Shown here: positions 22,471-35,479 of the stretch, piece by piece | Layout: each line of letters starts with the position of its first letter | Numbering within the stretch: position 1 is the stretch's first letter | NCBI GenBank assembly: GCA_025358255.1 | Contig: JANYKC010000069.1 | Location: 1-64,000 of the forward strand | Length of the DNA stretch: 64,000 nt | Source of the DNA: Spirochaetaceae bacterium | GTDB lineage: Bacteria; Spirochaetota; Spirochaetia; Treponematales; Rectinemataceae | Direction of reading: 5' to 3' | Translations under genes and position numbers: made by a program | The notes under the pieces: generated by a model | Told to the model about the DNA's origin: nothing | The model's input: only the letters and a program-made list of their open reading frames with translations | The model's database searches: none

Positions 22471-23769
22471 ATGTACAAGTACGTGATTGAAGGCGGCTTC
22501 CCGGTCAAGGGCAGGATCAGGGCCAGCGGCAACAAGAACGCGGCCCTCCCCTGCATCGCCGCCACCATCCTGGCTTCGGAGCCCGTGATCCTGCGAAACC
22601 TCCCGGAAATTGAAGATGTGCAGGTGATGTTCGATGTCCTCCGCCATCTGGGTTCCACAGTCGAGAAGCTCGGGGACCACGATTGGAGGATCGATACCCG
22701 TGCCGTGGAACGCTTCGACATCCCAGCCAAGGAAGCAAGGAAAATCCGCGCCTCCATCCTCTTCGCCGGTCCCCTTCTGGCCCGTTTCGGCAAGGTCACG
22801 ACGCCGCCGCCAGGGGGGGATGTCATCGGCCGCCGCCGGATCGATACCCATGTGCTGGCCTTCGAGGACCTGGGCGCCCGCCTTGAAATAGACCATGAGC
22901 TGAAGTTCACCGCCAACAAGCTTGTAGGCGCCGACCTCTTCCTTGATGAAGCCTCCGTGACAGGCACCGAGAACACCATCATGGTGGCCGTCCGCGCGTC
23001 AGGCCGGACGACAATCCGCAACGCGGCGAGCGAGCCCCACGTCCAGGACCTCTGCAAGCTCCTCGTCGCGATGGGTGCCAGGATCGAGGGCATCGGCTCC
23101 AATGTCCTCGCGATCGACGGCGTGGAATCCCTGGGCGGCGCCGATTTCCCCATAGGGCCGGATTTCATGGAGATCGGCTCCTTCATTGGCCTCACGGCGG
23201 TCACCCGCGGCGAGATCACCATCGAAGGCGTCAAAAGGGAGGACCTGCGGCCCCTCAAGGTCGCCTTCTCCCGCCTCGGCATCTCCTGGACCCTCGCCGG
23301 CGGGGTGGGCGAAGGCGCTGACCTGCTGGTCCCGGTGGGCCAGCAGATGAAAGTCTCGACCGACCTTGGCGGGCAGGTGCCCAAGATCGATGATTCGCCC
23401 TGGCCGGGATTCCCCCCCGACCTGACTTCGATCATGACCGTCGTCGCGACGCAGTGCGAAGGGACGGTGCTCATCCACGAGAAGATGTTCGAGTCGCGCA
23501 TGTTCTGGGTGGACAAGCTCATCGGCATGGGCGCGCGCATCGTGTTGTGCGACCCACATCGTGCCGTCGTCTCGGGGCCCTCTCGCCTCCATGGCGATTC
23601 CCTGACCTCGCCCGATGTGCGCGCAGGCATGGCCATGGTCATCGCGGCCCTCTGCGCGGAGGGCACGAGCACCATCCACAATGTCTACCAGATCGAACGG
23701 GGCTACGAGAACATCGCCGCAAGGCTGCGAGCCCTGGGAGCCCACATCGAGAGGGCAGAGGACTGCTAA
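22471..23769 (+). CDS. murA: UDP-N-acetylglucosamine 1-carboxyvinyltransferase with Cys-to-Asp active site
   Basis: First committed step of peptidoglycan synthesis: enolpyruvyl transfer from PEP to UDP-GlcNAc. The 432 residues have the two-lobed EPSP-synthase fold ([16 protein letters not shown] at the N-terminus; [23 protein letters not shown] at the C-terminus). The catalytic loop reads [16 protein letters not shown], so the residue equal to Cys115 of E. coli is Asp117. Enzymes with Asp here stay active but are not alkylated by fosfomycin. The 3' end overlaps the convergent argD by four bases. It is expressed from its own promoter next to an IS-derived hairpin. Confidence 0.93.
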
Positions 23770-24938
23770 GGCCCCTGGGAGCCGGTGAACGCTCCCAAGG
23801 TATCGCGCAACTTCTCCAGCCCTTCGTCGACCTCCTCGTCCGTGATCACGAGGGCTGGCAGCAGGCGCAGGACATCCTCGCCCGCGGTCAACACGAGAAG
23901 CTGCCGCTTGATGGCCTCCTGCTTGACCTCATCGGGTGACACCGAGACCCTCACGCCGATCATGAGCCCCCTGCCGCGCACTTCCTTCACGACCGGGTTC
24001 CCCCAGGAACGTATCGCCGACATGATGCGCTCTCCCTTGGCTGCCACGACCTCGAGGAAGCCCTCGCCCTTGATGGTCGCGAGCACCGTCCCGACCGCGG
24101 CCATCGCGAGGGGATTGCCGCCGAAGGTCGAGCCATGGTCGCCCTTCCCCAGGACGGTCGCGGCCTCCCCCCTGGCGAGCACGGCGCCGACCGGCACTCC
24201 TCCCGCAAGTCCCTTGGCGAGGGCCACGACGTCCGGCTCGAGGCCAGCCCATGACGAGGCCAGGAAGGAGCCGGTCCTTCCGACGCCGCACTGGACCTCG
24301 TCGGCCATGAGAAGGGCGCCGCGCGCGCGGCAAAGTGCCGCGGCCCTCTGAAGGTAGGCCGGATCGATCGGCACGACGCCGCCCTCGCCCTGGATCGGCT
24401 CGAAAAGGAAGGCGCAGACGTCGTCCGTGAAAGCCGCTTCCAGCGCGGCCAGGTCGCCGGCGCGCACATGGCGGAAGCCCGGCGTGAAGGGACCGAAATG
24501 CTTGCGCAGCTTTTCCTGGCCCGTGGCGGATAGGTCGGTTATCGTACGGCCATGGAAGGACCCCTCGAGGGCCAGGATGACATTCCGCGCCGGATCCATG
24601 CCGTTGCCCCGCTTCCGAGCGACCTTGATCGCGCCTTCGAGGGCCTCCGCCCCTGAATTGCAGAAGAAGACACGCTCGAGTCCGGATGCCCGGCAGAGGG
24701 CCTCGGCGGCCGCTAGGCCTTCCCTCGTCTGGTAATAATTGGATACATGGATGAGGCGGCCTGCCTGCGTCGCGATGGCGGAGACCAGGGCGGGGTGGCC
24801 ATGACCGAGGGAGTTGACCCCGATGCCGCTCGTGAAGTCGAGGAAGCCCTTCCCTTCGTCTGTAAGCAGGCGCGCCCCCCTGCCTTCCGCGAAGACGAGG
24901 CCAGTGCGCTTGTAGGTATCCATGAAGCAGTCGCTCAT
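23766..24938 (-). CDS. argD: Acetylornithine aminotransferase
   Basis: Class III PLP aminotransferase converting N-acetylglutamate semialdehyde to N-acetylornithine (and often acting in lysine synthesis). The 390 residues show [15 protein letters not shown], the PLP phosphate-binding [38 protein letters not shown] with the Asp that binds the pyridine nitrogen, and the Schiff-base Lys in [16 protein letters not shown]. It is the last gene of argCJBD, overlapping argB by four bases (ATGA). Confidence 0.93.
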
Positions 24939-25798
24939 ACGATCATCGTCCCTATTCCGCCGTCAGAGAAGACCTCGAGGAGGAGGGAGTGGGGCGAGCG
25001 GCCGTCGATGATGTGGGCGCGTCTCACGCCTCCCTCGACGGCTTTCGCGCAGCACGTGACCTTCGGGATCATTCCCTTTGATACGATGCCTGACCGGACC
25101 AGGCCCACGACCTCGGATGCGCGCAACTCGGCGATGAGGGTGCCGGCGTCATGTTGGTCCCGCAGGATGCCGGGGACATCGGTGAGAAGGATGAGCTTCT
25201 CCGCGCCGAGGGCGAGCGCGATATCGGCGGCTGCCGTGTCGGCGTTGATGTTGAGGAAGCCCTCCTCGTCGTCCTCCGCGAGCGCCACGGTGGCGACCAC
25301 AGGGAGGAATCCGGCGCCAAGGGCGAACTCGAGGACGGGAACCTTCACCTGGCTAATTTCGCCCACCAGGCCAAGGTCGGCCTCGCCTTCGAGGCGGCGC
25401 GCCGTGAGGAGTCCGCCATCGGCGCCGCACAGGCCGATGGCCTTGCCGCCGCCGCGCTGGATGAGGGCGACAAGGTCCTTGTTGACCTTGCCCGCGAGGA
25501 CCATCTGCACCACGTCCATCGTCTCCTCGTCGGTGTAGCGAAGCCCCGCGATGAACTGCGGCTCCTTGCCCGTCTTCCGGAGGAAGTTGTCTATCTCCGG
25601 CCCGCCTCCGTGGACCAGGACCGTCCGTATGCCGACGGCCATCATGAGGAGGAGGTCCTGGATCACGGCCGCCCTGATGCTTTCGTTGATCATGGCTGCC
25701 CCGCCGTACTTGACCACGACGGTCTTCCCCTTGAAGCGCTCGATATAGGGAAAAGCCTGGGCGAGCACTTCCGCCCTCGCGCTGTCGGTGATTGGCAT
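24935..25798 (-). CDS. argB: Acetylglutamate kinase
   Basis: Phosphorylates N-acetylglutamate. The 287 residues have the amino-acid kinase fold: KTVVVKYGGAAM (catalytic Lys and Gly loop), VLVHGGGPEID, LVGLCGADG-like IGLCGADGGLL, FLNINADTAAADIA and KLILLTDVPGI. The start at 25798 has AAGGAGA upstream, 13 bases after argJ; the frame runs further but only over argJ. The sensitive or insensitive character toward arginine cannot be read with certainty: the N-terminal helix found in inhibited enzymes is partly present (SARAEVLAQAFPYIERFKG). Confidence 0.93.
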   Translation of the reverse strand: MPITDSARAEVLAQAFPYIERFKGKTVVVKYGGAAMINESIRAAVIQDLLLMMAVGIRTVLVHGGGPEIDNFLRKTGKEPQFIAGLRYTDEETMDVVQMVLAGKVNKDLVALIQRGGGKAIGLCGADGGLLTARRLEGEADLGLVGEISQVKVPVLEFALGAGFLPVVATVALAEDDEEGFLNINADTAAADIALALGAEKLILLTDVPGILRDQHDAGTLIAELRASEVVGLVRSGIVSKGMIPKVTCCAKAVEGGVRRAHIIDGRSPHSLLLEVFSDGGIGTMIV

Positions 25799-25811
25799 GG
25801 TTGTCTCCTTG

Positions 25812-27032
25812 CTAGGTCCGGTAGTCGCCATTGATGCGAACGTATTCGTAGGAGAGGTCACAGCCCCAGGCCGTCGCCTGGGCGCCGCCGAGGCCAAGGT
25901 CGACGAGGATGGTGACCTCGGTGTCGCCTAGGACCTTCTTCGCCTTGTCCTCGTTGAAGGGGATGGGCGCGCCGTCCTTGCATACCTCGAGGTATCCGCG
26001 CCCGCTCTCGAAGGCCAGGGCGACCTTGGAGGGGTCGAGGGCCGCGGGGGTGTAGCCGAGGGCGCAGAGGACCCTTCCCCAGTTGGCGTCGGAGCCGAAG
26101 AGGGCGGTCTTCACGAGGCTCGAGGAGATGACGGCCTTGGCGAAAGCGACGGCGTCGGCCTCGCTCTGCGCTCCGGACACGATGCACTCCACGAGCTTTG
26201 TGGCGCCTTCCCCGTCCCGCGCGATGAGGCGGGCGAGCTCGACGTTGATCTCGTCGAGGGCCTCCGCGAAGGCGCGGAAGTCCGCGCCCTTGGAGCTGAT
26301 GGCCTCGTTGCCCGCGAGGCCGTTCGCGAGGGCCACGACCATGTCGTTCGTGCTCGTGTCGCCGTCCACGCTGATCCGGTTGTAGGTCCGCGCGACGCTG
26401 GCCGAGAGCGCCTCCTGGAGGAGTCCACGGTCTATGGCGCAGTCCGTCGTGATGAAGGAGAGCATGGTCGCCATGTTGGGATGGATCATGCCCGAGCCCT
26501 TGGCGATGGCACCGATGGTGACCGTCGTGCCGTCGGCGAGCTCCAGGCTGACGGCGACTTCCTTCTTCATGGTGTCCGTCGTCATGATGGCCTCGCGCGC
26601 GGCGATGGAACCCGAGCTCGAGAGGCCGGCGACGAGGGCATCCATGCCCCGCTCGATGATGGTCACGTCGAGGAGCTCGCCGATGATGCCCGTGCTCGCC
26701 ACGACCACGTCCTCGGCCCGGACAGGGAGGCGCTCGGCGACCAGCTCCGCCATGTGGCGCGCCACCGCCAGCCCCGGTTCACCCGTGCAGGTGTTCGCGT
26801 TGCCCGAATTGACGATGATGGCCTGGGCGATGCCGTCCTCGAGGTGCTCCTTCGTGATCACGACGGGTTGGCCCTTCACCTTGTTGGTGGTGAAACAGCC
26901 GACGGCCACGCAGGGCTTTTCCGAAAGGATGAGGGCGAGGTCCTTCTTTTCCTTGTTGCGCCTGACGCCGCAATGTATGCCCGACGCGGTGAAACCCCGC
27001 GGGGCCGTGACGCCGCCCCTCAAATGCTTCAT
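25812..27032 (-). CDS. argJ: Glutamate N-acetyltransferase / ornithine acetyltransferase
   Basis: 406-residue autoprocessing enzyme that moves the acetyl group from N-acetylornithine to glutamate, giving the cyclic arginine pathway. The self-cleavage site is the Thr in KGSGMIHPNMATMLSFI; other family motifs are GVTAPRGFTASG, VNSGNANTCTG, TGIIG and DGDTSTNDM. The C-terminus ends in the typical DLSYEYVRINGDYRT. Because ArgJ recycles acetyl groups, no ArgE is required; whether this ArgJ also makes acetylglutamate from acetyl-CoA cannot be told. It lies 37 bases after argC. Confidence 0.94.
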   Translation of the reverse strand: MKHLRGGVTAPRGFTASGIHCGVRRNKEKKDLALILSEKPCVAVGCFTTNKVKGQPVVITKEHLEDGIAQAIIVNSGNANTCTGEPGLAVARHMAELVAERLPVRAEDVVVASTGIIGELLDVTIIERGMDALVAGLSSSGSIAAREAIMTTDTMKKEVAVSLELADGTTVTIGAIAKGSGMIHPNMATMLSFITTDCAIDRGLLQEALSASVARTYNRISVDGDTSTNDMVVALANGLAGNEAISSKGADFRAFAEALDEINVELARLIARDGEGATKLVECIVSGAQSEADAVAFAKAVISSSLVKTALFGSDANWGRVLCALGYTPAALDPSKVALAFESGRGYLEVCKDGAPIPFNEDKAKKVLGDTEVTILVDLGLGGAQATAWGCDLSYEYVRINGDYRT

Positions 27033-27069: not shown

Positions 27070-28128
27070 TCAGAATGCCGCCGGCAGCATGGAAATCCCG
27101 GCCCCCTCTTCGAGGCCGAGGGCTATGTTCATGTTCTGGACGGCCTGTCCAGCCGCCCCCTTCACCATGTTGTCGATGCAGCCCACCGCGATCCCCATCT
27201 TCCCCCCGTGGGCCAGGTGCACCGAGATGTCGCAATAGTTCGAAAGCCTGACATTGCGGTTCGTCGCGGCCATGCCGGCCGGAAGCACCCGCACGAATGG
27301 CTCCTGGGCGTAGAATGCGGCATAGGCGGAACGCAGCTCCTCCGCGCTGACCGGTGACGCCAGGCGGAAATAGGTCGTGGAGACGATGCCCCGCCCCATG
27401 GGCGCCAGGTGGGGCGTGAAGACGGATTCGACGCCGACGCCGGCCATCTGCGAGAGGACCATGTCGATCTCCGGGATGTGGCGGTGCTCGCCCACCTTGT
27501 AGGGCGTAAGGGAATCCGCGGCCTCCGCATAATGGCTGCTGCGCGAAGGTTCCCTGCCGGCACCGGTGACCCCCGACTTCGCGTCGATGACGATGCCCTC
27601 GCGCCTGGCGATTCCGAGCCGCAGGGCGGGGAAAAGCGCCAGGGTCGAGGCCGTCGGGTAACAGCCGGGGTTGCCGATGACCCGCGCACGCGTTATGCGC
27701 TCCCGGTTCAGCTCGGGAAGGCCGTAGACGGACCCTGCGTGGAGGCATGGAAAGGCCCAGGCTTTTCCATACCAGGCCGCGTACAGGCCCTCGTCGGGAC
27801 CGAAGCGGAAGTCCGCGGAGAGGTCGATGAAGACCGAGTTGCCCGTGTCGGTCTTCGCCGCCCATTCCTCCGCGAAGCCCGCCGGCCCCGAGGAGAAGAC
27901 CACGTCAGCCGCGCAGGCAAGCTCCGGCGCGACAAGGGCCGAGAGCACCGCCCTTTTCCCGGCCCTCTTCCCTCCGGAGGACAGGTTGGGATAGGCGGAC
28001 TCCAGCGCCTCGCCGGACCGGCTCGTCGAGGCGACGATTATTTCCCCGACATCGGGATGGGAAAGGAGGATGCGCACGAGTTCGGCTCCGGCATAGCCTG
28101 AAGCCCCGATGACTCCACAGGTGATCAC
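27070..28128 (-). CDS. argC: N-acetyl-gamma-glutamyl-phosphate reductase
   Basis: NADPH-dependent reduction of acetylglutamyl phosphate. About 352 residues: N-terminal Rossmann motif GVIGASGYAGAEL, SADFRFGP, the catalytic Cys in VIGNPGCYPTAS, and the HRHIPEIDMVL motif carrying the active-site His. The start is taken as GTG at 28128, which is preceded by AGGAAGG at 4 bases; TTG at 28146 has no Shine-Dalgarno. It is the first gene of argCJBD, with a leader of about 230 bases from the promoter at 28366-28394. argF, argG and argH are not in the window. Confidence 0.92.
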   Translation of the reverse strand: MITCGVIGASGYAGAELVRILLSHPDVGEIIVASTSRSGEALESAYPNLSSGGKRAGKRAVLSALVAPELACAADVVFSSGPAGFAEEWAAKTDTGNSVFIDLSADFRFGPDEGLYAAWYGKAWAFPCLHAGSVYGLPELNRERITRARVIGNPGCYPTASTLALFPALRLGIARREGIVIDAKSGVTGAGREPSRSSHYAEAADSLTPYKVGEHRHIPEIDMVLSQMAGVGVESVFTPHLAPMGRGIVSTTYFRLASPVSAEELRSAYAAFYAQEPFVRVLPAGMAATNRNVRLSNYCDISVHLAHGGKMGIAVGCIDNMVKGAAGQAVQNMNIALGLEEGAGISMLPAAF

Positions 28129-28351
28129 GTGTCCTTCCTCGATCAAGGAATGAAGGGCCGATACGGACCCCGAGCATGGGAAAAGCTTGAAGGATTAACG
28201 ACGGGCGCGGGCTATGCGGAGGCTGGCATGGAAGGGCAGGAGGAGGCGGACGGTGAGGGTATCAGGGGAAGGTGTGGCACCATGAGGGGTGACCGGGGAA
28301 GGGGGAACCCGAAAATGCAGTCCGGAAAAAGGCATAACCAGCCTCCAAGTC
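28129..28351 (-). other. Long argC leader without a credible gene
   Basis: About 225 bases between the predicted argC transcript start and its start codon. An open frame begins near the transcript start (MRLGGWLCLF) but has no Shine-Dalgarno and no arginine run, so I do not call a leader peptide. No clear terminator-antiterminator pair is seen. Confidence 0.4.
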
Positions 28352-28413
28352 GCATATATATGCAGACTATGGACAATATCGGTGCTTTTGTCAACCGTCT
28401 TGCATATTTATGC
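28352..28413 (-). promoter_or_regulatory. arg operon promoter flanked by two ARG-box-like palindromes
   Basis: On the minus strand: TTGACA (28394-28389), 17 bases, CATAGT (28371-28366). One palindrome, GCATAAATATGC (28413-28402), lies just upstream of the -35; a second, GCATATATATGC (28363-28352), covers the expected start point. Their centres are 50 bases apart. This layout fits two-site repression by an ArgR-type hexamer, although ArgR itself is not in the window. The upstream box overlaps the stop codon of the racemase gene. Confidence 0.65.
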
Positions 28414-29121
28414 GTCTTTTTGCGGTCCTGTATGCACCATGAAATCGGCGGCCGCCTTGACGTGCAGCCTGGTGGTATCAAGGTAGGCCAAGGGGAGGTC
28501 GCCGTCTTTCATGACGAGAGGAAGTTCGGTACATCCCAGGATGATGCCCTCGGCGCCTTCCTTCGCCAGGCCCAAGGCGATCTCCCGAAGCCGCAACCTG
28601 GACTCGTCGCGGAATATGCCACGGCAGAGCTCGTCGAAGATGATCGCATCGACCGCCTTGCGCTCAGCGGGGGGCGGGATGATTGTCTCAATGCCGAAGC
28701 GCGCGCGGAGGCGGTCACGGTAGAAGTCCTTTTCCATCGTGAAGATCGTGCCGAGGAGGCCGGCCCGGCGCAGTCCGGCATCCACCATCGCCTGCCCCGC
28801 GGCGTCGGCGATGTGGAGGACAGGAAGGCCTGCCGCCGCCTCGATCTCCCCGGCGAAGAGGTGCATCGTGTTCGTCGCGATGACGATGGCCTCGGCCCCC
28901 GCGCGGGCGAGGCGCAGGCCTTCCTCGACGAGGGCCGCCCCGATCTCCTCCCAAAGCCCGGCCTTCATGCGCTGCGCATACCAGGAAAAATCCACGGAGC
29001 TCAGGACGACACGCGCCGAGGAGAGTCCGCCGAGGCGCAGCGCGACCTCCCCGTTGAGGAGGCGGTAGTACTCCGCCGTCGATTCCCAGGAGAGCCCGCC
29101 GATGATCCCGACCAGACGCAT
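28408..29121 (-). CDS. Aspartate/glutamate racemase family protein
   Basis: 237-residue cofactor-independent racemase (YgeA/aspartate racemase group). The first catalytic position reads IATNTMH, with Thr where many racemases have Cys; the second is GIILGCTELPL with Cys. A Thr/Cys pair is the arrangement described for the E. coli L-Asp/Glu-specific racemase, so this may act on L-substrates in one direction or with narrow specificity. N-terminus MRLVGIIGGLSWESTAEYYR matches the family. It overlaps the upstream aminopeptidase by one base (TGATG), suggesting a peptide-to-amino-acid processing pair. Confidence 0.88.
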   Translation of the reverse strand: MRLVGIIGGLSWESTAEYYRLLNGEVALRLGGLSSARVVLSSVDFSWYAQRMKAGLWEEIGAALVEEGLRLARAGAEAIVIATNTMHLFAGEIEAAAGLPVLHIADAAGQAMVDAGLRRAGLLGTIFTMEKDFYRDRLRARFGIETIIPPPAERKAVDAIIFDELCRGIFRDESRLRLREIALGLAKEGAEGIILGCTELPLVMKDGDLPLAYLDTTRLHVKAAADFMVHTGPQKDA

Positions 29122-30377
29122 CAGGAAAGCCCTCCCTCGCCGATCCGGAAGGTACCGCGCTCGAGGATCAGGGTCGTCCTTCCGGCCTTGTCCGCGCCTT
29201 CGACCACCACGTCCTCCGAGCCGATCATGAAGTCCTCATGGACCATGGATTCATTGAAGCCCTCCGCCGCCTTCACCGCCGCGTCCATGGCAGGGGCGCC
29301 GTCGAAGGCCTCCTCATAGGCCGCGCCCAGGGCGATATGGCAGGCGGCGTTCTCGTCGATGAGTCCGTTGTCGAAGACGAGGCCGCTTCGGTAGATGGGG
29401 CCGGTCGCGTCGACCAGGGCCACCTCGCCAAGGAGGCGGGACCCTCCATCTGTATCGAGGTACCTTCCCAGGCTCGCCTCGTTCCTGGCTGCGCCGAAGC
29501 GGGCCACCCGGCCGCCTTCGAATTCGAACCAGGCGCCCTCGACCTTCGCCCCCAGGACCTGGAGGGGGCGCGTGCAGGCGACCCGGCCCTCGGTCCGCTT
29601 GGCATCCGGGCTCGTGAAGACTTCCTCGGTAGGGTGGTTGGGGAGGAAGAAGCGGCCGTCCACCGTCGTGGAGCCACCACCGATCCAGCGCGAACGCGGC
29701 GAGAGCCCCACGACAAGGTCGGTGCCAGGCCCCGTGAAATGCAGCCGGTCGAGGGCCAGGGCGGTAAGGGCATCGGCCCGCCGCTTGAGGAGGGCGGCGT
29801 GCGCCTTGGCCGTGGCGGCAGGATCGTCGGCATCCAGGCGCAGGATGGGCACGAGGGCTTTCCAGAGCTCTCCTTCGGGGTCGGTGCCGGGATCGCGGCC
29901 CGCGCCGGAGAGCACGTCCTTGCCCCACGCGGCCGTGGGCACGGGGGCCACGCACCAGGGAAGCCGGTTGGACATCATGGCCTCTCGGTAGGGCTTCACC
30001 GCCTGCGACCGCCCACGGGCGAGGCGCTGGAGACGCTCGGGGGCCGCGCCTTCGAGCGCCGCAGGGTCATCCTCGCCGACAAGGCTGAGGCTGTACCAGC
30101 CTTCCTCCACCAAGGTCTCCGCCTCCCTGCTCAGCGAGAGAGAGATGTCGTCCAGGTATTCGTGACGGCAGCCATCGGCGCGGATGCGCGTGAGACGGGG
30201 ATCTGGATAGTCCAGCCTGACCGATCTGGCGCCGAGGGCGTAGGCCCGCTCGGCGATGGCCAGCATGAGGGGGCGGTGGCAGGTCTCCCCCGATACCCGC
30301 AGCCGAGACCCCGCCCTCAGGTCGAGGCAGCCCTCCACAAGAAGGGCTGCATAGCGGTACATCGTCGCATGGTCCAT
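29121..30377 (-). CDS. M29-family aminopeptidase (AmpS/aminopeptidase T type)
   Basis: 418-residue cytoplasmic metallo-aminopeptidase. Metal-ligand and active-site motifs typical of M29 are present: NHPTEEVFTSPD (Glu ligands), GLIDENAACHIALG (Glu/His), and FNESMVHEDFMIGSEDV (His and Asp ligands). The start at 30377 is chosen because AAGGAG lies 8 bases upstream; GTG at 30386 would overlap that site. It is translationally coupled to the racemase gene downstream and follows the sensor kinase gene by about 100 bases. Confidence 0.9.
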   Translation of the reverse strand: MDHATMYRYAALLVEGCLDLRAGSRLRVSGETCHRPLMLAIAERAYALGARSVRLDYPDPRLTRIRADGCRHEYLDDISLSLSREAETLVEEGWYSLSLVGEDDPAALEGAAPERLQRLARGRSQAVKPYREAMMSNRLPWCVAPVPTAAWGKDVLSGAGRDPGTDPEGELWKALVPILRLDADDPAATAKAHAALLKRRADALTALALDRLHFTGPGTDLVVGLSPRSRWIGGGSTTVDGRFFLPNHPTEEVFTSPDAKRTEGRVACTRPLQVLGAKVEGAWFEFEGGRVARFGAARNEASLGRYLDTDGGSRLLGEVALVDATGPIYRSGLVFDNGLIDENAACHIALGAAYEEAFDGAPAMDAAVKAAEGFNESMVHEDFMIGSEDVVVEGADKAGRTTLILERGTFRIGEGGLS

Positions 30378-30475
30378 ACGCTCCACTCCTTGAACCCCGG
30401 GCTTCCGGACCTCGCGCCCTTCACGGGGACCGCGTGGGCGGCCCGGCCAAGCCCTCGATATGCGCCGTCTTCATC

Positions 30476-31933
30476 TCATTCCTTCTCGGGAAAAGCGAAG
30501 CGGACGCGGAGGCCGCCACCATCCTTGCTGGACCAGGAGACATAGCCCCTGAGCTGGGAAGCAAGGCTGTGGATGAGGGAGAACCCCAGCGAGTCCGTGG
30601 CCTCGGGATCGAATTGGGCAGGGAAGCCGGGGCCATCGTCTTCCACCTCGAGCGCTATTTCTTGGGCATCCAAGGCATCGGGCTCGATGGCGAGCCGGAC
30701 GCGGATCCTCGGCGCTTCCTTCTCCCTGCCCCCGTATTTCGCCGCGTTCGTAAGCAGTTCGTTGAGGGCCATCCCCATGGGAAGCGCCCGGTCAAGGGGA
30801 AGCCATACTTCGGAGAGCTCGGTCTCGATGCGGGGTGGGGGCGAGAGGGAACCGCAGATCCCGGAGATGAGGCGCCGGATATAGGCCGAGATATCCACGG
30901 CGGATGCCTCCGGGGAACGGGAAAGCAGGTCGTGGACAAGGGCCACCGACCGGACCCGCTCCTGGCTGTCGCGCAGTATGCCCATCACCTTTGCATCCCC
31001 GCTCTCGCCTTTCGCGAGGTCGAGAAGGCTGGCGATGATCTGAAGGCTGTTCTTGATGCGATGATGGACCTCGCGCAGCAGGCCCATCTTCTCCTCAAGG
31101 GCCAGGCTCAAGACAAGGTTTTTCTTCCTGAGCGCGCCGCCTTCCCTGCGCATGTCGAGGAACATGCTTCGATACGGCTTCATGAGGACTTGGGAGACAA
31201 CCGCCTTGTAGATGAGGAAAAATGAGGCGATGCGGAAGTACTCGCCCAGGTATTCGAAAACCGGAGCCGCTCCGGCCGACAGCAGGGCGGCTGGAGCCGC
31301 GGCGGCCGCCAGTAAGACGGCGGCGACCAGGCGGCGGCGATAGCGTCCCGACGGGAAGGAACGGCGCAGGCGCAAGGCGGAGAGCATCAGGAGGACCCAG
31401 GTAAAGACCGTGTTTGCCAGGGCGAAAGCCAGGAAGTACACCGTGCCCCGCGGCGGCGGAAGGAGACGAAGGGCCGCCACCCCGGCGATGGCAAGGGTCA
31501 CGAGGAAATACGTGGTCCACGCACCGCGCATCTTCACCCCCGTGCGTTCCACGGAAGAAAGGAAAAAAAACGCGAAAGCGAGATACCAGCCGGAAGAGAG
31601 ACGCAGGAAGAGGGCGATGCCTTGGCCATCCGCGCGCGGGCCGTAGCTGGCCATGGTGGACGCCATTTCCAGAAGAGCGATGAAGGCGAAGGAAGGTCCG
31701 AGGAATCGAAGAGAGGGGGAGGCATTGAAGCCCGCGGTATTGCGCGCAAACCCATAGACGACAATGCAGCAGGTGACGGCGAAGATATCGGAGAACAAGC
31801 CAAGGTATGCCCGGTCCCAGCGTGCGAGGATCGCAAGGAGTATCCCGATCGCCACCAGGAAGGCCACGATATCCTGGTTGAGCCTGAAAAGCCTGAGGGC
31901 GAACCGTGCCATTTTCCGTCGAAGGGGAAGCAT
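30476..31933 (-). CDS. Membrane sensor histidine kinase (MASE3-like, HisKA_2)
   Basis: 485 residues. The N-terminal half holds seven or so hydrophobic segments (FLVAIGILLAILA, DIFAVTCCIVVYGFA, FAFIALLEMASTMA, YLAFAFFFLSS, YFLVTLAIAGVAALRL, TVFTWVLLMLSAL, LVAAVLLAAAAAPAALLSAG) and resembles a MASE3-type integral sensory domain. Then come a short coiled coil and a HisKA_2 phospho-acceptor region (LLREVHHRIKNSLQIIASLL, near residue 290), followed by a HATPase domain with an N-box (MALNELLTNAAKYG) and G-boxes (EDDGPGFP, SLGFSLIHSL). GGAGG precedes the ATG at 31933; a TTG at 31945 is less likely. No cognate regulator is adjacent. Confidence 0.88.
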   Translation of the reverse strand: MLPLRRKMARFALRLFRLNQDIVAFLVAIGILLAILARWDRAYLGLFSDIFAVTCCIVVYGFARNTAGFNASPSLRFLGPSFAFIALLEMASTMASYGPRADGQGIALFLRLSSGWYLAFAFFFLSSVERTGVKMRGAWTTYFLVTLAIAGVAALRLLPPPRGTVYFLAFALANTVFTWVLLMLSALRLRRSFPSGRYRRRLVAAVLLAAAAAPAALLSAGAAPVFEYLGEYFRIASFFLIYKAVVSQVLMKPYRSMFLDMRREGGALRKKNLVLSLALEEKMGLLREVHHRIKNSLQIIASLLDLAKGESGDAKVMGILRDSQERVRSVALVHDLLSRSPEASAVDISAYIRRLISGICGSLSPPPRIETELSEVWLPLDRALPMGMALNELLTNAAKYGGREKEAPRIRVRLAIEPDALDAQEIALEVEDDGPGFPAQFDPEATDSLGFSLIHSLASQLRGYVSWSSKDGGGLRVRFAFPEKE

Positions 31934-31977
31934 TTCATCCTCCAAGGCTATGCCCGCGGGAAGCCGGAAACTACGTC

Positions 31978-32006
31978 ACTCTAAGTCTGTACTTCCAATA
32001 TGTCAA
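31978..32006 (-). promoter_or_regulatory. Promoter for sensor kinase gene
   Basis: On the minus strand: TTGACA (32006-32001), 17-base spacer, TAGAGT (31983-31978), about 45 bases before the kinase start. Confidence 0.6.
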
Positions 32007-32044
32007 CAATCCTCCTCCTTCCGCCAGGCGGGCACGCGGGCTGA

Positions 32045-32073
32045 TTGCCTCGGACCTCGCTTTCCGCTAGACT
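32045..32073 (+). promoter_or_regulatory. trpS promoter
   Basis: TTGCCT (32045-32050), 17-base spacer, TAGACT (32068-32073). It predicts a trpS leader of about 210 bases. It diverges from the sensor kinase promoter. Confidence 0.5.
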
Positions 32074-32147
32074 CGAAAGCAGGAAAAGCGAATGAACATG
32101 CCCCATCTTGCTTCCCTTCGTCCCCGAGAGCGCTGGTCTTGGCGCCC

Positions 32148-32208
32148 GGCGGTTTCGTCCACCCGATAGCGGGTGGCAGGGGCGCGGCCCCCGCGAGACG
32201 ACACCGCC
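32148..32208 (+). ncRNA. Candidate structured trpS leader RNA, three-way junction
   Basis: An outer stem GGCGGTTTCGTC (32148-32159) with GACGACACCGCC (32197-32208) pairs at 11 of 12 positions. It encloses two hairpins: CACCC/GGGTG with loop GATAGC (32160-32175) and GGGGC/GCCCC with loop GCG (32179-32191). The shape matches no riboswitch or T-box I recognise. It sits inside the predicted trpS leader, 80 bases before the start codon. GC-rich DNA forms chance stems, so confidence is moderate. Confidence 0.4.
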
Positions 32209-32288
32209 AGAGGGAAAAGGAAGGGTCGCTCCCTGTCAGGGGCCTGTCTTCCCCCGCCGCCAACGATGCCACGCAACGGAGAACAACC

Positions 32289-33344
32289 ATGGAACGCAAG
32301 CGCATCCTCACGGGAGACCGCCCCACCGGCAAGCTCCATCTCGGCCACTATGTCGGAAGCCTCGCCAACCGCGTCCGCCTCCAGGACGAGTACAAGTGCT
32401 TCTTCATCATCGCCGACCTCCACACCCTCACCACCAAGCCCGAGAAGGAGCACATCGAGGCCCTGGCCGACAATGTGCGCTCCGCCGCCCTCGACTACCT
32501 GGCCTGTGGCATCGATCCGGCCAAGAGCGTCATCTACCTCCAGTCCGCCGTGAGCGAGGTCATCGAACTTGCCCTGTATTTCCAGAACCTCATCACCGTC
32601 CCCCGCCTCTCCCGGGTGCCGAGCCTCAAGGAGATGGCCCAGGGCGCCGGCATCGAGGAGATGCCCTTCGGCCTCCTGGGCTACCCCGTCCTCCAGGCCG
32701 CGGACATCCTCCTCCCCCGCGCCCACCTGGTGCCGGTCGGCAAGGACAACGTGGCCCACGTCGAGGTGACCCGCGAGATCGCGCGCCGCTTTAACTTCCT
32801 CTACGGCGAGACCTTCCCCGTCCCCGAGGTCCTCGTCTCGGAGTACGGCTCCCTCGTGGGCCTCGACGGCAACGCCAAGATGTCCAAGAGCCTTAACAAT
32901 GCCATCTATCTCTCCGACGACGAGAGGACGGTCACCAAACGCGTCATGTCCATGTACACCGACCCCAAGCGGGTCTCCGCGGACATACCCGGCACTGTGG
33001 AGGGCAACCCGGTCTTCCAGTACCATGACGCCTTCAACCCGGATAAGGCCGAGGTCGAGGAACTCAAGGCCCGCTACCGCCTCGGTAAGGTCGGCGACGT
33101 CGAGGTCAAGGAAAAGCTCGCCAAGGCCCTCAACCATTTCCTCGACCCGATCCGCGAACGGCGCGCGAAGTACGAGTCCCAGTCCGGACTCGCCGACGAG
33201 GTCGTCTACGACGGCACGATGAAGATGCGCGAGGAGGCCCGCGCGACCCTCACGATCGCCAAGAAGGCGATGGGCATTTCGGCGGTCTGGAACCGCATGG
33301 CGCGCAAGGCCGACGAGGTGAAGAAAAAGCGCGGGGCACAATAG
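32289..33344 (+). CDS. trpS: Tryptophanyl-tRNA synthetase
   Basis: Class Ic aminoacyl-tRNA synthetase charging tRNA-Trp. The 351 residues begin MERKRILTGDRPTGKLHLGH, with HLGH as the HIGH motif. PVGKDNVAHVEVTREIARRFN binds tryptophan and AMP, and NAKMSKSLNNAI (about 196-201) is the KMSKS loop. Length and motif order are normal for the bacterial TrpS group. A short GGAGA precedes the ATG. The frame extends upstream without coding character. Confidence 0.95.
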   Translation: MERKRILTGDRPTGKLHLGHYVGSLANRVRLQDEYKCFFIIADLHTLTTKPEKEHIEALADNVRSAALDYLACGIDPAKSVIYLQSAVSEVIELALYFQNLITVPRLSRVPSLKEMAQGAGIEEMPFGLLGYPVLQAADILLPRAHLVPVGKDNVAHVEVTREIARRFNFLYGETFPVPEVLVSEYGSLVGLDGNAKMSKSLNNAIYLSDDERTVTKRVMSMYTDPKRVSADIPGTVEGNPVFQYHDAFNPDKAEVEELKARYRLGKVGDVEVKEKLAKALNHFLDPIRERRAKYESQSGLADEVVYDGTMKMREEARATLTIAKKAMGISAVWNRMARKADEVKKKRGAQ

Positions 33345-34065
33345 GGAAAGGGGGGAGCGCCTCCCAGGGAAGACAATCCTCGGGCGGGAATCAACCCACG
33401 AAGGACCCCAGGTTGAGCGCCACGATAGAGTATTGTGTCCCGCGGATTGGCGGGGGAAGGGGGGGGCGTCGCGTGGGATGGGACGGCTCCCCCTCGCTCC
33501 GGCCTCCTCGCGGGATCGCGGTGCGCGTTGTGCGATCACGCTGTGGGGGCCTTCGCTGCCCCCACTTCAACCATGCTGGCGGATTGCGGGGGCGGCCGGC
33601 TGCCAAAGGGGCGACCCCTGGGATCCGGCTCAGGCGCCCGCGGACGTGGGGGGCTCGTCCGAAGTCCTTGCTGCTGCCGCCCACGGTCGTCCGGACCGTG
33701 ACCCATTCGCCTCCGTCCACGATCTCCATGATGTCGGCGAGCCCGAAATCATAGGACTCGAGCTTCCCCCGGGTGATGCCAACCTGGATCTCCCGGCCGG
33801 AGCGCCTACGTCGGAACTCCACGTTCGTGCCCGGGATGCCCTGGCCCAAGGGTTCGGGAAATTGGCGCAATGGATGCGGGTCGAAGATGCACAGGCCAGG
33901 ACAATGCCGCAGTTCGAGAACCCGGAGGCCGATGGAACGACGCAAAGTAGCATAGTCGCCGATCGGCCCTATGCAAGCAAGGACGCGGCGAAGCCTCCTG
34001 CACTGCCGCAGGATGCCCTGCCCTGGGAGGGTTTCCCCCATCCCCGGGCAGGCACCTTTCCAGGG
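33345..34065. other. Gene-poor 720-base stretch with possible gene remnant
   Basis: No recognisable gene. A minus-strand open frame (34041 to 33391) has one protein-like patch, roughly 33654-33820, reading REIQVGITRGKLESYDFGLA then DIMEIVDGGEWVTVRTTVGG, flanked on both sides by Arg/Pro-rich low-quality translation. This looks like a decayed or laterally acquired fragment. A hairpin GTGGGGG/CCCCCAC with a nine-base loop lies near 33542-33565. Confidence 0.35.
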
Positions 34066-34068
34066 TGC

Positions 34069-34737
34069 TTACTTTGCCGTGCCGATGGAGATGAGCTCCA
34101 CGTCAAACACAAGTGCCGAGTTCGGCGCTATCTGCTCTCCTGCTCCCTGGGGGCCATAGGCAAGGTCGGAAGGGATGAAGAAGCGGTACTTGCTGCCGAC
34201 GGGCATGAGCTGGACGCCTTCCGTCCAGCCCCGGATCACCTGGGAAAGGCCAAAGGTCGCGCTCTCGTTCCTCGCGTAGGAGCTGTCAAAGACCGTGCCG
34301 TCAAGGAGGCGGCCCTCGTAGTTGACCGTCACCGTGTCCGAAGCCTTGGGCATGGGCCCAGTGCCCAGCGTGAGCACTTCGTACTGGAGGCCGGATGCGG
34401 TGACTTTCACCCCGGACCTCGCCTTGTTGGAGGCGAGGAAGGCCTGTCCGGTGGCGATGTTTTCGCTCGCCCTCCTGGCCTGGGCCGCTTCCACGGCCAT
34501 CTGGATGGCCGCCTGGGCCTGGGCCTGAGAAAGCCTTGTCTTCGAGCCGCGCAGGATGTCCTGGAAGCCCGCCATGTACGCATCGAGGTCGATTTCAATC
34601 CCGGCCGACTTGATATTGGCCGCCATGAGCATGCCTAGGGCATAGCTGGCGTCGTTGGCGGCCGCCGTCGGCTGGTTTTGTGCGGCAAGGGGAAGGACGA
34701 GCGCAATGGCTAGCGCGATCAGGGCAAAGTGTTTCAT
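34069..34737 (-). CDS. FKBP-type peptidyl-prolyl isomerase, exported
   Basis: 222 residues with an N-terminal signal peptide (MKHFALIALAIALVLPLAAQ). The N-terminal FKBP_N helical dimerisation domain (about 25-105: ASYALGMLMAANIKSAG, AAIQMAVEAAQARRASEN) is followed by an FKBP catalytic domain (about 115-222: VTVNYEGRLLDGTVFDSSYA, SQVIRGWTEGVQLMPVGSKY, FFIPSDLAYGPQG, SALVFDVELISI). This is the Mip/FkpA plan: a periplasmic folding helper. The start at 34737 has AAGGA 6 bases upstream; the extra Met at 34743 is too close to it. Confidence 0.9.
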   Translation of the reverse strand: MKHFALIALAIALVLPLAAQNQPTAAANDASYALGMLMAANIKSAGIEIDLDAYMAGFQDILRGSKTRLSQAQAQAAIQMAVEAAQARRASENIATGQAFLASNKARSGVKVTASGLQYEVLTLGTGPMPKASDTVTVNYEGRLLDGTVFDSSYARNESATFGLSQVIRGWTEGVQLMPVGSKYRFFIPSDLAYGPQGAGEQIAPNSALVFDVELISIGTAK

Positions 34738-34897
34738 GTTCATTCCTTTTCTGGAGTCGCTTGTCGGGAATATAGCACAAGCCGATGCCCGAAACCTATC
34801 CTGGGGACAGCCCCCTTTCTGCCGGCCTTGTGCTAGAATATGATCCGGGCGGATTCTGTCGTCCCCGAAGCGCAAGCCTCGCATCAAGGAGCATCAC

Positions 34898-35479
34898 ATG
34901 AAAGTCCTGGCCATAAACGCAAGTCCCCGCAAGGGCGGGAACACCGACCGCATCCTCCGCATGGTCCTGGCGCCCCTGGAGGCGGCGGGGGCAGGGACGG
35001 AGATCATCCAGATAGGCGGGAAAAACATCCGCAGCTGCACGGCATGCATGTCCTGCTTCAAGAACAAGGACGGCCGCTGCGTCCAGGATTCGGACATGTT
35101 CAATGAGGTGGTCGCGAGGTTCGCCGACGTGGACGGCATCATCCTGGGCTCCCCGACCTGGTTCGCGGACGTGACCCCCGACATGAAGGCCTTCATGGAC
35201 CGCGCTGGCTTTGTGGCCCAGGCCAACGGGGCACCGCTCAAGCGCAAGGCCGGGACGGCTGTGACCGCGGTCAGGCGTGGCGGGGCCATCCATTGCCTCG
35301 ATACCATGAACCACTGGCTCCATTACATGCAGACCTACATGGTCGGCTCGACCTACTGGAACATGGTTTTCGGGCGGGAGCCCGGCGAGGCGGAGAACGA
35401 CGCGGAGGGCGTGAAGACAATGCGCAACCTGGGCGAGAATTTCCTCGCCCTCATGCAGGCCCTCGCGGGAGGGAAATAG
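34898..35479 (+). CDS. Flavodoxin-fold NAD(P)H-dependent FMN oxidoreductase
   Basis: 193 residues. The phosphate-binding loop ASPRKGGNTDRIL at the N-terminus binds FMN. SCTACMSCFKNKDGRC supplies a cysteine cluster of the type seen in iron-sulfur flavoproteins (Isf), and ILGSPTWFADVTPDMKAFMDR is the second FMN loop. It may transfer electrons as a dimer; whether an iron-sulfur cluster is bound cannot be told. AAGGAGC lies before the ATG. The next gene starts 4 bases after the stop, so they form an operon. Confidence 0.88.
   Translation: MKVLAINASPRKGGNTDRILRMVLAPLEAAGAGTEIIQIGGKNIRSCTACMSCFKNKDGRCVQDSDMFNEVVARFADVDGIILGSPTWFADVTPDMKAFMDRAGFVAQANGAPLKRKAGTAVTAVRRGGAIHCLDTMNHWLHYMQTYMVGSTYWNMVFGREPGEAENDAEGVKTMRNLGENFLALMQALAGGK

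Follow-up and report, generated by a model that had tools for sequence, protein, structure and literature searches.

In bacteria, arginine synthesis is the standard case of control by a repressor, and leader-peptide attenuation is not known to take part in it. In the tryptophanase operon of E. coli, a ribosome that halts at the end of the leader ORF (TnaC) protects a Rho site; TnaC arrests at a high level of its amino acid and induces breakdown, whereas stalling on the argC leader described below would be expected at a low level and would induce synthesis. The closest known system to the argC and argG leaders is Salmonella speF orf34 (SpeFL). Like them it is a short leader ORF, and its consecutive Arg codons sense arginine and it is linked to Rho termination and a C-rich site, as is proposed for argC and argG; it differs in that it controls polyamine synthesis, in that its sensing Arg codons stand at positions 12-13 and not at the end, and in that RNase G also degrades the mRNA as part of its output, with a hairpin after the stop codon (PMC6386406). 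The ilvB1 leader of M. tuberculosis is likewise enriched, ahead of a pathway gene, in the codon of the pathway amino acid, but it uses an intrinsic terminator, whereas the argC and argG leaders mostly lack one and serve arginine (PMC13236596). The Rhodobacterales uORF motif before cysS likewise abounds in codons for the amino acid of its pathway; the main text of that paper, which screened Spirochaetes among other phyla, contains neither argC nor argG (PMC8632094). The carA leader peptide of Pseudomonas aeruginosa precedes a gene common to arginine and pyrimidine synthesis; the gene and the phylum are different (mentioned in PMC4997734). Searches of open-licence PMC papers aimed at arginine leader peptides or attenuation gave no paper on such a peptide ahead of argC or argG; the "ArgC" in PMC13245402 is a protease specificity, not the gene.

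The window, which is the whole 64-kb stretch of DNA analysed, carries on its minus strand argC (27070..28128, GTG start), argJ (25812..27032), argB (24935..25804, with a start codon of our choice) and an argD-type acetylornithine transaminase gene (23766..24938). By NCBIfam the genes are those of the argC-argJ-argB-argD operon named in the original prediction. The region from 29121 to 35479 holds ordinary neighbours, namely an M29 metallopeptidase, a MASE3 histidine kinase, a class I (W/Y) tRNA synthetase, an FKBP isomerase and an FMN reductase. We propose, with a probability of about 0.68, that argCJBD is under two stacked arginine controls, consisting of ArgR operators and of leader attenuation that probably acts through Rho. 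In what follows, genomes are labelled G (G000 is the host), loci L, and families f.

The promoter of the operon (28366..28394, minus strand) consists of TTGACA (28394-28389) and CATAGT (28371-28366) with a 17-bp spacer and matches the consensus at 10 of 12 positions. As had been claimed, it is accompanied by two palindromes, one just upstream of TTGACA and one over the expected start point, 50 bp apart centre to centre on both sides of the promoter: GCATAAATATGC lies 5' of the -35 element (28402..28413, minus strand, read 28413-28402), and GCATATATATGC covers the expected start point (28352..28363, minus strand, read 28363-28352). The upstream box reaches into an ORF for an amino-acid racemase on the minus strand (28408-29121) and overlaps its last codons and stop codon, so that this operator lies partly in coding DNA. 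The palindromes are not a product of chance. The pattern GCATAWATATGC is expected 0.01 times in the 64-kb window and is present at two sites, and in the whole 4.14-Mb assembly the pattern GCATAWWTATGC occurs at these two sites only (control, 0). The boxes score 22 and 21 in an 18-mer ARG-box model, and neither the single-box nor the wide-pair score of the argC upstream region was reached by any of 200 dinucleotide shuffles. TTGACA also stands upstream of argC in most relatives, and pairs 50-52 bp apart around it were found in G001, G003, G016 and G007. Rfam returned two sub-threshold microRNA models over the palindrome pair when 27900-28600 was searched (E 0.084 and 0.21), which were taken as chance.

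The ARG-box consensus is TnTGAATwwwwATTCAnA, to which the 18-bp argC palindromes are related with GCAT halves, and GCAT-type half-sites are known in Streptomyces. ArgR/AhrC operators are imperfect palindromes of ~18-20 bp at arginine promoters. In E. coli, 3 bp separate the two 18-bp boxes, and there are precedents for wide spacing in the argC boxes of B. subtilis, 11 bp apart, and the malE-malR boxes of S. coelicolor, 83 nt apart (PMC3293853). A relaxed pattern, GCATNNNNATGC, matched at 90 places against 6 for its backwards control. The strict double-box pattern, searched in 392 genomes of the phylum, matched in the host genome only, and the scored 18-mer model was therefore applied instead to upstream regions, with 200 dinucleotide shuffles per region as control and without the argC loci L036, L038, L040 and L041. 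The host argG has the tandem boxes TATGCATATATATTCGGT / ATTGCATAAATATACTTG and the host OTC (ornithine carbamoyltransferase) gene has GACGTATATTTATTCTGA / GGTAATTACTTATGCATC, each pair 21 bp centre to centre and each matched in score by 0/200 shuffles. At a p value of at most 0.01, 12/19 argC regions have a single box, and 8/13 argG and 8/14 OTC regions have tandem boxes. Box-like sites precede argC, argG, OTC and argR in many relatives, with half-sites that mix TGCAT, TGAAT and TGTAT; before argR itself they were seen in several relatives, and the host argR has a weak candidate (score 17).

An argR, the absence of which was to have spoken against the original prediction, was found in the host genome (L049, G000:C56:93611-94078). 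It is the one ArgR found there; its protein (P0002) matches PF02863 with 62.4 bits, above the cut-off, and TIGR01529 with 109 bits, below the cut-off of 130, and it aligns with solved arginine repressors. Since argR is present and degenerate tandem boxes at 21 bp precede argG and OTC, the argC palindromes are very probably ArgR operators, a reading which the original prediction had offered and which the box-like sites at relatives' arginine genes also support. What did not hold was the "classical" geometry: a gap of 2-3 bp between boxes, as in E. coli, was found at argG and OTC, whereas the argC pair stands 50 bp apart around the promoter. Operators of this type are familiar; what is unusual is their spacing at argC. 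The GCAT half-site was borne out at the argC pair, but the exact GCAT palindrome, which had been expected near other arginine genes, is found nowhere else in the genome, and its absence from those genes had been named as a result that would speak against the original prediction; what recurs there are the degenerate boxes at argG and OTC.

The pocket of this ArgR bears on how strongly it would respond to arginine. Solved arginine repressors have GDDT at the pocket motif, and among 30 homologues (L049 and L050-L078) the motif is GRDN in 23, GQDN in four, GDD in one and GEN in one, and is cut off in one. In E. coli ArgR, arginine is held by its guanidino group at the first of these Asp residues, Asp128 (PMC2880562). 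In our reading, the changed residue of GRDN and GQDN aligns with Asp128, and the predicted co-repressor pocket of the host ArgR is altered. This unusual pocket, the restriction of the exact palindrome to the argC promoter and the position of its upstream copy in the 3' end of the racemase gene would all suit a different regulator in place of ArgR, such as one connected with the racemase gene. We regard that as very improbable, because box variants recur before relatives' argC, argG, OTC and argR, because the 21-bp spacing at argG and OTC is of the ArgR type, and because the boxes are missing at argG (L095) and OTC (L118) of G010, a 97% complete draft genome in which no ArgR match was found (absence from a draft genome is not proof of gene loss). 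The argC of G010 (L022) has only a weak box (score 19, p 0.03), far from the likely promoter. Boxes were also not found at argC of G018, which has an ArgR homologue, or at OTC of G008, G013 and G014, all with ArgR.

About 25 nt past the expected start point lies a second element, a Shine-Dalgarno sequence TTGGAGG (28342..28348, minus strand) and a predicted leader ORF of 46 codons (28195..28335, minus strand), MPFSGLHFRVPPSPVTPHGATPSPDTLTVRLLLPFHASLRIARARR-stop, the stop codon of which lies 66 nt before argC. Its tail is SLRIARARR-stop, that is, it closes on Arg-Ala-Arg-Arg-stop. Being a short, apparently translated ORF between the promoter and the first gene with a run of Arg codons, it has the make-up of an attenuation leader and is proposed as an arginine sensor; in-frame selection was measured in related leaders (see below). 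The original prediction had mentioned neither this ORF nor the overlap with the racemase gene.

Leaders of the same type were found in related spirochaetes. By eye, 18/20 argC loci in families f1 and f2 show a leader that has Arg as its last residue or next to it; L133 is the contig of L036, which ends early, and was counted for L036 in this number. The reading excluded L042, with only the last part of argC, as well as L045, L047 and other weak argC matches, and at argC of G003 and G010 no leader was found. The argC tails include RARR, VRR, FRRR and YRR; of the 18, two end weakly in RK and another in LR, and a further one ends in RRP. When 80 named argC loci were scanned, the leader type appeared in L130, L131, L132 and L134; L133 has the leader and fails the filter. 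The 400-nt context of L130 is identical to that of G016, and a second Arg-tailed ORF overlaps the L130 leader; three ORFs in the Clostridia records L156, L176 and L203 were of other kinds. A sister leader precedes argG in 11/13 loci of family f1. In the host it reads MMPFSVTAPSSPAVRRLRRLRRR and ends in RRLRRLRRR-stop, and in relatives the tails are RLRRR, RLRRP, RLRRS, RLRSR, RLRRG and RLRRSRR. No argG leader was found in G006 and G013, and the upstream regions of the partial argG loci L096, L097 and L091 (at a contig start) lay outside the reading. In the f5 regions (argC L038, L040 and L041; argG L079, L085 and L090) no leader was found, and none was seen in 12 OTC upstream regions. Behind argG at L087:3-2697 stands a lyase gene consistent with argH (PF00206, 216 bits; ASL_C2 under the cut-off); as this argH-like gene adjoins argG, the argG leader probably controls argGH.

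Between genera the bodies of the leaders are poorly conserved, and AT-poor DNA favours Arg codons, as would be expected if they were nothing other than chance ORFs in C-rich 5' leaders. This is extremely unlikely in view of an automated scan for ORFs that are preceded by a Shine-Dalgarno sequence and whose last six codons include three or more for Arg. It found them in 15/27 argC regions against 0.45 expected from same-dinucleotide shuffles (with L036 in the set at a wrong offset) and in 8/18 argG regions against 0.25 expected (two of the 18, L217 and L218, having been preselected). A strict DNA pattern for RLR[RS][RS]-stop, applied to 251 genomes of the order, points the same way against chance: it matched 18 places in 17 genomes, across families f1, f2, f4 and f5, and its backwards control gave two matches in the 251 genomes. 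By tblastn, 16/18 places lie directly upstream of argG (13) or argC (3), with the gene start within 290 nt. Seven of the 18 were already known when the pattern was designed, and nine of the 11 previously unknown places were verified before argG or argC. One place (G016:C164) has a typical leader and an AAGGAG that resembles a Shine-Dalgarno sequence, and 89 nt remain from it to the end of the contig; another (G016:C157) lies inside other DNA and is a chance match. A loose Arg-tail pattern gave 149 matches in the host genome against 115 for its control and was discarded.

Purifying selection in frame argues further against chance ORFs. In two clades, neither of them the host species, pN/pS in frame was 0.51 (g12) and 0.43 (g13) without stop codons, and in the shifted frames it was 1.25 and 0.97 (g12) and 0.52 and 2.12 (g13), all with stop codons. 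In these two clades the leader evolves as a protein. Among 34 leaders gathered by eye, the last codon is Arg in 28, by means of five different Arg codons, and the second-last codon is Arg in 31. A Fisher test on a set of 30 leaders (94/180 versus 73/737) is biased, as these leaders were chosen by eye and in part on account of their tails, and fairer tests are the automated scan and the 11 previously unknown pattern places. The tail codons CGC CTC CGT are conserved also as DNA, so that an RNA-level role for them is possible.

As Arg codons close the leaders before arginine genes, we strongly infer, from sequence comparison, that the leaders sense arginine, as Arg-tRNA, via the ribosome; Rho as their output we infer weakly. 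The transcript of the host leader is C-rich and G-poor (28141..28335, minus strand; 84 C and 34 G in 195 nt), a possible Rho-loading region, and of the 25,522 windows in the 64-kb stretch the argC leader has the greatest excess of C over G. The C-over-G excess of 26/30 leaders is in the top 5%, and that of 21/30 in the top 1%, of same-length windows at their own locus, where the windows overlap and are not independent. The C excess is missing from four argG leaders, which may act in another way. The host genome has a rho gene (G000:C3). Sites resembling intrinsic terminators occur in 4/30 leaders, and on the argC strand at the host leader no terminator-like site, that is, no hairpin with a U-tract of the trp/his type, was found.

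The output could instead be at translation, with no part for Rho: the Arg-codon stretch (with CCUCC) would pair with the Shine-Dalgarno sequence of argC or argG, and a stalled ribosome would free it. Conservation of CGC CTC CGT as DNA would fit, as would the folding models, in which the Shine-Dalgarno of the main gene is largely base-paired (its mean unpaired value being 0.18 for argC and 0.26 for argG; 27/30 leaders, the three omitted having no recognised Shine-Dalgarno). We nevertheless consider this unlikely, as a modelled ribosome on the Arg codons does not release the Shine-Dalgarno (0.18 to 0.17 in 16 argC and 0.26 to 0.29 in 11 argG leaders, with a gain above 0.2 in 1/27) and as its pairing partners differ between genomes (14 leaders). 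Rho termination is favoured because terminators are rare, the Shine-Dalgarno is not opened in the models, the leaders are C-rich and G-poor and rho is present.

According to the proposed reading of two stacked controls, ArgR would in a first layer bind the two boxes 50 bp apart and block the promoter. In a second layer, the argC transcript would open with the leader ORF ending in Arg codons, and argGH would have the sister leader. When Arg-tRNA is scarce, the ribosome would stall at the last Arg codons, next to the stop codon, and would shield the RNA or block Rho, so that the genes are expressed. When arginine is plentiful, the ribosome would complete the leader and leave, exposing the C-rich, G-poor RNA, and Rho would probably terminate transcription before argC. 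The leader need not depend on ArgR, since G010, with no argR found and no argG box, keeps its argG leader. A wider reading, which we put forward tentatively and with some doubt, is that Arg-ended leader peptides with an Arg-Leu-Arg-Arg-Arg-stop consensus are the arginine sensor of arginine biosynthesis across this order of spirochaetes, acting via Rho. The peptides may then carry the main arginine signal, as most ArgR of the group have Arg or Gln at the position of E. coli Asp128 and may be partly arginine-blind. In the boldest form of this reading, the tail would be an arrest peptide that answers arginine at the stop codon. Taken on its own, an arrest of the nascent RLRRR at the stop codon by free arginine or a related metabolite, and not by codon starvation, would account for a tail that abuts the stop and is conserved as the sequence RLRRR and not as Arg count alone. 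It is nonetheless decidedly improbable: by its simple sign, arginine-induced stalling that protects the RNA would raise synthesis at high arginine, and the argC tails vary.

If the proposed reading of two stacked controls is true, the argC and argG leaders would offer a compact system for the study of Rho and of stalling close to a stop codon. The tail pattern picks out arginine operons, with few false matches, even where a genome lacks annotation. An Arg-codon attenuator placed under ArgR, and kept before argG in G010, would mean that the two strategies of controlling arginine synthesis can be layered and exchanged.
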